From positions 1,645,928 through 1,709,927 of the forward strand of contig NC_013407.1 in the NCBI RefSeq assembly GCF_000024625.1: a stretch of DNA of 64,000 nt. The letters run 5' to 3'. A program made the translations under genes and the position numbers. Below are positions 26,459 to 30,432 of this stretch, one piece after another (position 1 is the first letter of the stretch; every line of letters starts with the position of its first letter). The stretch is from Methanocaldococcus vulcanius M7 (GTDB taxonomy: Archaea; AGJL01; Methanococci; Methanococcales; Methanocaldococcaceae). Under the pieces are notes generated by a model that did no database searches, was not told the origin of the DNA, and worked only from the letters and a program-made list of their open reading frames with translations.

Positions 26459-26473
26459 ACTGATCACCAAAAA

Positions 26474-26482
26474 TTTTATATA
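26474..26482 (-). promoter_or_regulatory. TATA box of the translin-like gene
   Basis: TATATAAAA reads on the minus strand about 16-24 bases before the chosen GTG start, implying a very short or absent leader. Confidence 0.45.
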
Positions 26483-26544
26483 CCTATTGTGTTGTATTTG
26501 ATTATACACTCCTCCTTTTCTTTTTGATCATATTTAATTTTAAG

Positions 26545-26553
26545 TTTATATAA
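26545..26553 (+). promoter_or_regulatory. Probable TATA box of the L3 ribosomal operon
   Basis: TTTATATAA is followed at once by the GC-rich element at 26555-26609. A start 22-26 bases downstream falls at about 26573-26578, inside that element, leaving a leader of ~155 bases before the L3 start. Confidence 0.45.
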
Positions 26554-26554
26554 T

Positions 26555-26609
26555 GCAAACCTGAAAAGCCCACATGGGCAATGACAGGTTTGCGGAATCG
26601 AGCAAACCC
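26555..26609 (+). promoter_or_regulatory. GC-rich element with three copies of one heptamer; operator or structured RNA leader
   Basis: GCAAACCTG (26555-26563) and CAGGTTTGC (26585-26593) form a perfect 9-base inverted repeat. Inside it GCCC (26568-26571) and GGGC (26576-26579) can form a nested hairpin with loop ACAT. A third copy, GCAAACC at 26602-26608, can pair with the same GGTTTGC, giving two mutually exclusive hairpins. The segment is about half G+C in a very AT-rich intergenic region. It could be an operator over the start site, an RNA switch, or a small RNA. Confidence 0.55.
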
Positions 26610-26730
26610 TATAATAATGCTAAATAATATCTAATATCTTATACCATAAATATCTTAATCAGTAAAAAACTAAAAAATCGAAAACACTTGAATTTTAAAG
26701 AACATCAAAATGTATTCGGGAGGTTAGATT

Positions 26731-27738
26731 ATGGGATTGAGTATTAATAGACCAAGAAGAGGATCGTTAGCATTTAGTCCGAGAAAAAGAGCAAAAAGAC
26801 CAGTTCCAAGAATTAGAAGCTGGCCAGATGAAGAGGCAGTAAGATTACAGGCATTTCCAGTTTATAAAGCAGGAATGAGCCATGCATTCATAAAAGAAGA
26901 TAATCAAAAAAGTCCAAAAGCAGGGCAAGAAGTGTTTACTCCAATCACAATATTAGAAGCACCACCAATCAACGTATGTGCAATAAGGGTCTACGGAAGA
27001 AATGAAAGAAACTATTTAACAACATTAACAGAGGTCTGGGCAGACAACTTAGACAAGGAATTGGAAAGAAAAATAAATCTTCCAAAAAAAGAAGAAAGAA
27101 AGACAGTTGATGATTTAGAGGCAATAAAAGATAAAATAGAGGACGTTAGAGTTCTCGTCCATACAAATCCAAAACTAACTTGCTTGCCAAAGAAAAAACC
27201 AGAGATCTTGGAGATTAGAATTGGAGGAAAAGACATTGAGGAGAGATTAAACTACGCTAAAGAGATTTTAGGTAAGCAGTTAAACATTACAGATGTATTC
27301 CAAGAAGGAGAATTAGCAGACACAATTGGAATTACAAAAGGTAAGGGCTTCCAAGGGCAAGTTAAAAGATGGGGAGTTAAAATACAATTTGGAAAGCATG
27401 CAAGAAAAGGAGTAGGAAGACACGTTGGTTCTATTGGGCCATGGCAACCAAAGATGATCATGTGGACAGTTCCAATGCCAGGACAAATGGGTTATCATCA
27501 AAGAACAGAATACAACAAAAGAATATTAAAAATTGGGAACAATGGAGAAGAGATAACTCCAAAAGGTGGATTCCTACACTACGGAGTTATAAAAAACAAC
27601 TATGTTGTATTAAAAGGTTCAGTTCAAGGGCCTGCAAAAAGATTAATTGTATTAAGAAGGGCTATAAGACCAGAAGAGCCATTGATAAAAGTTCCAGAAA
27701 TAACATACATAAGCACAACATCAAAACAAGGAAAATAA
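26731..27738 (+). CDS. rpl3: 50S ribosomal protein L3
   Basis: The 335-residue archaeal L3 (uL3) begins [20 protein letters not shown]. The peptidyl-transferase-proximal loop is in [20 protein letters not shown], and [11 protein letters not shown] follows. GGGAGGTTAG is the ribosome binding site. It is the first gene of a five-gene ribosomal cluster and probably carries the regulatory leader for it. Confidence 0.98.
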
Positions 27739-27893: not shown

Positions 27894-28652
27894 ATGAAGG
27901 CAGTTGTTTATAACCTCAACGGAGAAGAAATAAAAGAAATCGACCTACCCTCAATATTTGAAGAAGAATACAGACCTGATTTAATAAAAAGAGCATTTTT
28001 ATCTGCATTCACGGCAAGATTACAGCCAAAAGGATCTGACGTGTTAGCAGGTTTAAGGACAAGTGCCAAAAACATTGGTAAAGGGCATGGTAGAGCAAGA
28101 GTAGATAGAGTTCCACAAGGATGGGCTGCAAGAGTTCCTCAGGCAGTTGGTGGAAGAAGAGCTCACCCTCCAAAAGTTGAAAAGAAATTATGGGAAAGAG
28201 TAAATAAAAAAGAAAGAATTAAAGCAATAAAAAGTGCTATTGCAGCAACAGCGAATCCTGAATTAGTTAAAGAAAGAGGACATGTGTTTGAATCTGAAAA
28301 TTTACCTATCGTTGTAGAGGACTCATTTGAAAATCTACAAAAAACAAAAGATGTATTTGCTGTCTTTGAAAAGTTGGGAATTGATAAAGATGTTATAAGG
28401 GCAAAGAATGGAATTAAAATTAGAGCTGGAAAAGGTAAAATGAGAGGAAGAAGATACAGAAAACCAAGAAGTGTTTTAGTTGTTGTTGGAGATAAATGCG
28501 AAGCAATTTTAGCTTCAAGAAACCTACCAGGAGTTGATGTTATAACCGCAAAGGACTTGGGAATAATACACTTAGCACCTGGAGGAGTTGCTGGACGATT
28601 AACTGTTTGGACAGAAAAAGCACTTGAAAAACTAAAAGAGAGATTTGAATAA
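27894..28652 (+). CDS. rpl4: 50S ribosomal protein L4
   Basis: The 252-residue archaeal L4 (uL4) has the extended loop [19 protein letters not shown] and GGRRAHPPK that lines the exit tunnel, and C-terminal [22 protein letters not shown] lies ahead of the ATG. Confidence 0.98.
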
Positions 28653-28766
28653 TTTCAATTTTCTAATCTTTGGTAAATCGAAAAATCGTAAAGATGGTAA
28701 ACATCAATAAAAAAATAACCACTATAACACAACAATAAAAGAAAATATCGAAACAAGGGGATGAAA

Positions 28767-29027
28767 ATGGACGCCTTTGATGTAATAAAAATGCCAGTGG
28801 TAACTGAAAAAACAGTTAAAATGATTGAAGAGGAAAATAAATTAGTATTCTATGTAGATAAAAAAGCCACAAAAGAGGATATAAAAAAAGCAATGAAAGA
28901 GTTGTTTGATGTGGAAGTTGAAAAAGTAAACACACTAATAACTCCAAAAGGAGAGAAGAAAGCATATGTTAAATTAAAACCAAAATACGATGCAACCAAA
29001 ATTGCAGCAAGCTTAGGAATCTACTAA
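28767..29027 (+). CDS. rpl23: 50S ribosomal protein L23
   Basis: The start at 28767 ([10 protein letters not shown]) is preferred to the ATG two codons earlier, because AAGGGGATG serves as its ribosome binding site and L23 of relatives starts here. The 86-residue protein shows [18 protein letters not shown] and ends AASLGIY. It sits at the tunnel exit and contacts signal recognition particle. Confidence 0.97.
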
Positions 29028-29182: not shown

Positions 29183-29911
29183 ATGGGAAAAAGATTGATC
29201 TCTCAAAGAAGAGGTAGAGGATCTTCAGTGTATGCTTGTCCTTCACACAAAAGAAGAGGGGAAGCAAGATACAGAAAATTTGACGAGTTAGAAAAAGGAG
29301 GAAAAGTTATTGGAAAAATCGTTGATATACTCCACGATCCTGGAAGAAGTGCTCCTGTTGCAAAAGTTGAGTATGAAACAGGAGAAGAAGGATTATTGGT
29401 TGTGCCAGAAGGAGTAAAAGTTGGAGATATTATTGAATGTGGTGTCTCTGCAGAGATAAAACCCGGAAACATTCTACCATTAGGATCAATTCCAGAGGGG
29501 ATCCCTGTCTTTAACATAGAATCAATTCCAGGAGATGGAGGAAAATTAGTAAGAGCAGGGGGATGCTACGCTCATATCTTAACCCACGATGGAGAAAGAA
29601 CCTACGTTAAACTACCTTCAGGACATATTAAAGCACTCCACTCCATGTGTAGAGCAACAATAGGTGTTGTCGCAGGAGGAGGTAGAAAGGAGAAACCATT
29701 AGTTAAGGCAGGAAAGAAATACTATGCAATGAAAGCAAAAGCAGTTAAATGGCCAAGAGTTAGAGGAGTTGCAATGAACGCTGTCGATCACCCATTCGGT
29801 GGAGGAAGACATCAACACACTGGAAAACCAACAACCGTTTCAAGGAAAAAAGTTCCACCAGGAAGAAAAGTTGGACATATATCTGCAAGAAGAACAGGAG
29901 TTAGAAAATAA
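29183..29911 (+). CDS. rpl2: 50S ribosomal protein L2
   Basis: Start set at 29183 (MGKRLISQRRGRGS), with GGTGGTG as ribosome binding site. The 242-residue uL2 has the conserved GVAMNAVDHPFGGGRHQHTG segment near the peptidyl-transferase centre. It is separated from L23 by 155 AT-rich bases. Confidence 0.98.
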   Translation: MGKRLISQRRGRGSSVYACPSHKRRGEARYRKFDELEKGGKVIGKIVDILHDPGRSAPVAKVEYETGEEGLLVVPEGVKVGDIIECGVSAEIKPGNILPLGSIPEGIPVFNIESIPGDGGKLVRAGGCYAHILTHDGERTYVKLPSGHIKALHSMCRATIGVVAGGGRKEKPLVKAGKKYYAMKAKAVKWPRVRGVAMNAVDHPFGGGRHQHTGKPTTVSRKKVPPGRKVGHISARRTGVRK

Positions 29912-29973: not shown

Positions 29974-30432
29974 ATGGCATCTGTAAAAAGAAGAAGAATC
30001 AAAAAGAAAAAACAAGTAATTTCAAGAAAGATTGAATTTAAGTATAGAGGATACACGTTAGAGGAGTTGCAACAAATGCCTTTAAGAGAGTTTGCAAAGT
30101 TGTTGCCTGCAAGACAGAGAAGAACATTATTAAGAGGATTAACTCCACAACAGAAAAAATTGGCAATGAAAATCAAAAAAGCGAGAAGATTATTAAATAA
30201 AGGTAAAGAACCAAGAACCATAAGGACACATTGTAGGGACTTTGTTATAACTCCGGATATGGTTGGAATAACCTTTGGAATTTACAACGGAAAAGAGTTT
30301 GTAGAAGTGAAGATCTCTCCTGAGATGATTGGGCATTATTTAGGAGAGTTTGCGTTAACAAGAAAACCAGTTCAGCATGGAAGCCCAGGTATGGGAGCTA
30401 CAAGAAGTTCAATGTTCGTTCCAATCAAATAA
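29974..30432 (+). CDS. rps19: 30S ribosomal protein S19
   Basis: The 152-residue archaeal S19 (uS19) has [20 protein letters not shown] and ends [21 protein letters not shown] precedes the ATG. In most archaea L22 and S3 follow; here the cluster ends and a transporter gene follows after 286 bases, so the S10-type operon is split, as in M. jannaschii. Confidence 0.98.

Follow-up and report, generated by a model that had tools for sequence, protein, structure and literature searches.

The window analyzed is a 64,000-nt stretch of the Methanocaldococcus vulcanius M7 genome (1,761,737 bp in three contigs), and all positions given here are counted from its first nucleotide. On the + strand it carries a ribosomal protein operon that begins with rpl3 (uL3; 26731-27738; Pfam PF00297, E 4e-93) and continues with rpl4 (uL4; 27894-28652; PF00573, E 9e-42), rpl23 (uL23; 28761-29027; PF00276, E 5e-17), rpl2 (uL2; 29183-29911; PF03947, E 3e-46) and rps19 (uS19; 29974-30432; PF00203, E 3e-31). 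The upstream neighbour of the operon is a divergent gene of the Translin family. Upstream of rpl3, three heptamers occur in series, GCAAACC (26555-26561), GGTTTGC (26587-26593) and GCAAACC (26602-26608), as first noticed from the sequence. The left pair form the closing arms of a 39-nt hairpin, GCAAACCTG-AAAA-GCCC-ACAT-GGGC-AATGA-CAGGTTTGC (26555-26593, + strand), with the architecture originally proposed for it, namely a perfect 9-bp stem, an AAAA/AATGA internal loop and a GCCC/GGGC inner stem. Its predicted folding energy is -21.4 kcal/mol, versus -7.8 +/- 2.5 kcal/mol for shuffled sequences (z -5.5), and it is retained in the predicted folds of the entire putative leader at both 37 and 80 degrees. 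The hairpin is 51% G+C, in agreement with the earlier estimate of about half in AT-rich DNA, the window being 31% and the surrounding intergenic region 29% G+C. Series in which a 7-mer is followed by its complement and then by a second copy of itself, all within 67 nt, number 11 in the window, and only the triplet in the hairpin region has at least four G/C residues.

The preliminary description placed the element beside a TATA box. A TATA-like string is indeed present at 26545, but it is missing in most relatives and, as a promoter, would be expected to initiate transcription within the hairpin. A BRE/TATA sequence, CACCAAAAATTTTATATACC (26465-26484, + strand), lies ~80 bp further upstream and is the more plausible promoter for the rpl3 operon. 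Members of the genus retain it, slightly altered in G003 and G009, two genomes in which the sequence further upstream differs, and its conservation is therefore not explained by the divergent gene. With the TATA-to-start spacing usual in Archaea, transcription would begin near 26504, and the whole hairpin would then lie inside the transcript, ~50 nt into the RNA. Most Methanococcaceae have a TATA box 41-47 nt before CCTGAAAA, so that little else would be transcribed ahead of the hairpin. Between promoter and hairpin, three Methanocaldococcus genomes (G007, G002 and G001; L024, L026 and L027) have an inverted-repeat insertion, TGTAGGACTTTCGCAG ... CTGCGAAAGTCCTACA, which is apparently tolerated directly upstream of the hairpin. 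In the Methanococcaceae (L035, L036 and L042-L050), the stretch from the TATA box to the hairpin has a conserved sequence, AATAAGGCA in several genera and AGGCAACTAT in Methanococcus, and the functional element in this family may consequently be larger.

When the intergenic region was used in a family search, several species returned the hairpin alone (query positions 70-114), the flanking sequences having diverged. When rpl3 leaders from 31 Methanococcales genomes were read directly, the hairpin was seen in representatives of each of the order's five genera, and CCTGAAAA and A..RA.AGG hardly varied. The inner stems (GCCC/GGGC, GCCT/AGGC, GGC/GCC, AGC/GCT and GGCAT/ATGCT) and the loop lengths differ. 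A covariance model of the hairpin, designated R1, identified 27 strong matches in 36 genomes, each in single copy and all 27 directly upstream of rpl3. Three Methanococcales genomes also have second-best R1 matches, all of them away from the genes for uL3, uL4, uL23 and uL2. Of the 33 genomes in which rpl3 could be found, six lack the hairpin, G013 and a group comprising G021, G024, G025, G028 and G032. Judged by rpl3 similarity rather than a tree, these look like two separate losses, and the hairpin is evidently dispensable in some lineages. Outside the order, R1 gave only weak matches in a search of 297 genomes, none near the uL3, uL4, uL23 or uL2 genes, and no hairpin was found, by eye or by text search, in 39 regions upstream of rpl3 in other Archaea. 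A pattern scan of the genomes of all species returned 53 stretches, of which the seven adjoining rpl3 are all from Methanococcales. Within the genomes scanned, sequence comparison thus indicates that the hairpin is specific to Methanococcales and never adjoins rpl3 elsewhere.

A covariation analysis upstream of rpl3 in the Methanococcales, named as a check in the preliminary description, found that the pairing is conserved. In 22 distinct sequences, 89% of the cells are paired, versus 29-46% when the partner strand is slid. Both stems covary, with both-sided changes at six pairs (19 cells) and one inner pair that is C-G in 11 sequences and G-C in the other 11. Although kinship raises counts of this kind, the changes are distributed over five genera. 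The core pairs include 10 G-U and only one A-C, which argues that the structure is preferred as an RNA of the + strand, the strand of rpl3. The consensus CCUG-AAAA/ANNRA-YAGG is near-invariant across the order. In the internal loop, the AAAA of the 5′-strand (26564-26567) is present in all 22 distinct sequences, as are the first and last A of the 3′-strand (AATGA at 26580-26584; ANNRA order-wide), making both strands a candidate protein-binding site. On this comparative evidence, the hairpin is a conserved cis-acting RNA element in the predicted leader of the rpl3 operon.

In 11 of 12 leaders from Methanococcaceae, the 20 nt that follow the hairpin include a run of at least five T residues, versus 5.9% of windows in the remainder of the leaders. 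No such run follows the hairpin in any of 12 leaders from Methanocaldococcaceae, and in Methanocaldococcus 60-200 nt separate the hairpin from the start codon and no output element is apparent. According to the title of a 2021 report (eLife 10.7554/eLife.70464, cited in PMC10450193), U-tracts direct termination in Methanococcus. The combination of hairpin and U-tract in Methanococcaceae suggests an attenuator, and a different output in Methanocaldococcus. In the predicted fold of the M. vulcanius leader, CTCCTCC near the predicted transcript start (26508-26515) can pair with the rpl3 RBS, GGGAGG (26718-26725), and some relatives have a similar potential for CTCC/GGAG pairing. Such pairing could provide the output step in Methanocaldococcus. 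Extending the attenuator suggestion to one that is run by a ribosomal protein, in which uL4 or uL3 would trigger termination at the U-tract in Methanococcaceae and the same sensor would be coupled to another output in Methanocaldococcus, is a tentative proposal that we consider rather doubtful.

In bacteria, uL4 is the established ligand of leaders of L3/L4-type operons. The leader of the S10 operon in Escherichia coli is read by L4, with control exerted through transcription termination at a U-rich site. That operon also contains the L3 and L4 genes, and U-rich termination is what is suggested here for the Methanococcaceae, but the organism, the start of the operon and the structure all differ, and the ligand of the archaeal hairpin is putative. 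An archaeal parallel is provided by the L4-Archaeoglobi leader (RF03135), which precedes rplC, rplD, rplW and rplB and for which uL4 is the predicted ligand (PMC7247131). Both are structured leaders before the same archaeal operon, but RF03135 is an 85-nt three-way junction whereas that of the Methanococcales is a lone hairpin with a 4 x 5 internal loop, and no match to RF03135 was obtained, either in the window with the threshold relaxed to E 10 or in the Methanococcales genomes. The hairpin is perhaps a different class that does the same job. RF03135 also matches sequences upstream of rpl3 outside the Archaeoglobaceae (L166:525-618 and L172:414-493, both on the - strand, and in Haloferax volcanii), the family being therefore wider than its name. 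A search of the window with all 4227 Rfam families at the gathering score returned one tRNA elsewhere and nothing over the hairpin, where a relaxed threshold added only chance-level matches. Similarly, a literature search returned no description of the hairpin and no mention of the rpl3 locus tags tried. Kink-turns bound by L7Ae are also protein-read structures in archaeal leaders (PMC5539422), and the ANNGA beside a stem in the 3′-strand of the hairpin recalls this motif. A kink-turn, however, has a three-base bulge and then tandem G.A pairs, with a two-base GA on the strand opposite. Read by eye, that strand is AAAA in all 22 hairpin sequences and ATTAA replaces ANNGA in Methanococcus, its G having become A, and the element was therefore rejected as a kink-turn. 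The best reading is that the element is an archaeal ribosomal protein leader of a known kind but of a new class absent from Rfam.

The preliminary description had listed a ribosomal protein autoregulatory leader among its possibilities. The conservation and covariation of a hairpin that lies on the strand of rpl3, immediately ahead of the gene and behind a conserved promoter, support the leader well, whereas the autoregulation is something we infer, as we do transcription itself, the protein that acts as ligand, the sign of the control and the stage at which it is exerted. The reading that we consider probable is of a Methanococcales-specific leader hairpin, the loop of which is read by a ribosomal protein from its own operon. 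Transcription from the BRE/TATA at 26465-26484 would generate an mRNA for uL3, uL4, uL23, uL2 and uS19 with the hairpin in its 5′-leader, and the CCUG-AAAA/ANNRA-YAGG internal loop would be the recognition site. By analogy, the ligand is most likely uL4, as it is the bacterial ligand for such operons and the predicted ligand in Archaeoglobi, although uL3, uL23, uL2 and uS19 are possible too. When in excess over rRNA, this protein would bind the hairpin and so reduce expression of the operon. Binding in Methanococcaceae would probably favour early termination of transcription at the adjacent U-tract and, in Methanocaldococcus, where there is no U-tract, the output may be on translation or mRNA stability. 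Weighing against this reading are the six genomes that have rpl3 but no hairpin, the distance of the hairpin from the start codon in Methanocaldococcus with no evident output, and the negative result for mimicry of 23S rRNA described below.

A smaller but appreciable probability attaches to the hairpin being read by some other RNA-binding protein, chaperone or nuclease, for example as a 5′-stabilizer or processing site, which would set a fixed level of expression rather than one under feedback. The same conservation evidence applies, and structured 5′-UTRs are the reported targets of the M. maripaludis protein TRAM0076 (PMC6705878). Consistent with such a reader, mimicry of 23S rRNA was not found. 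The best match to R1 in the rRNA locus scored 5.9 bits (E 3.6), and local alignments of the hairpins to 23S rRNA were mostly within the range of shuffled sequences, with nothing convincing. The place that recurred as the best, AAAGCTGAAAAGCACCCC at ~position 502 of the 23S rRNA, was no better than shuffles, and the alignment for G003, which nearly beats them (1.7% of shuffles), is at a different place. A single copy, found only at rpl3, with a near-invariant unpaired loop is better suited to a specific ligand than to a general stabilizer. It is improbable that the hairpin and U-tract in Methanococcaceae instead mark the end of an independent small RNA of ~60 nt that acts in trans. The position of the U-tract directly after the hairpin and the fixed distance from the TATA box would fit such an RNA, but Methanocaldococcus has no U-tract, the element is always tied to rpl3 and there is no conserved single-stranded seed beyond the loop. 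In M. vulcanius itself, nothing speaks for the independent RNA that the preliminary description had named as its third possibility. Even less probable is the operator that the preliminary description also suggested, a DNA site overlapping the start of transcription at which a regulator would bind. The CCTG..CAGG inverted repeat and, in M. vulcanius, the TATA-like string just upstream conform to an operator, but the two arms are not a constant distance apart, there is covariation in the inner stem, the wobbles are strand-biased and the adjacent TATA is unconserved. Finally, the three heptamers are very unlikely to act as a switch, with the two mutually exclusive hairpins of the preliminary description, since, although the pairing is possible in M. 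vulcanius and its nearest relative, G008, the third heptamer (26602-26608, + strand) is outside the conserved element and absent from 23 of 25 leaders inspected, and the right-hand hairpin (-13.5 kcal/mol, z -1.5) is ~8 kcal/mol weaker than the left.

The favoured reading, of feedback by a ribosomal protein through the leader hairpin, is amenable to experiment. The hairpin is compact and single-copy with a near-invariant candidate binding loop, and it occurs in Methanococcus, which is open to genetic and transcriptomic work (PMC10450193, PMC6705878). Whether there is feedback on the rpl3 operon in Archaea, and whether or not it acts via early transcription termination, is thus directly testable.

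A separate, conserved and unrelated RNA-like element, CCAGACG ... CGUCACGG, was observed upstream of rpl3 in the archaeal families f34, f49, f93 and f131 (L168:682-775, L173:144-227 on the - strand, L176:740-823, L184:674-764, L185:682-772 and L187:717-813). The two sequences close a branched leader, its outer pairs covary, and it has no match in Rfam even at E 1. A model of this element also matches G077, G173 and G241, and identified further copies upstream of rpl3 in three genomes outside the training set, G207, G097 and G224.
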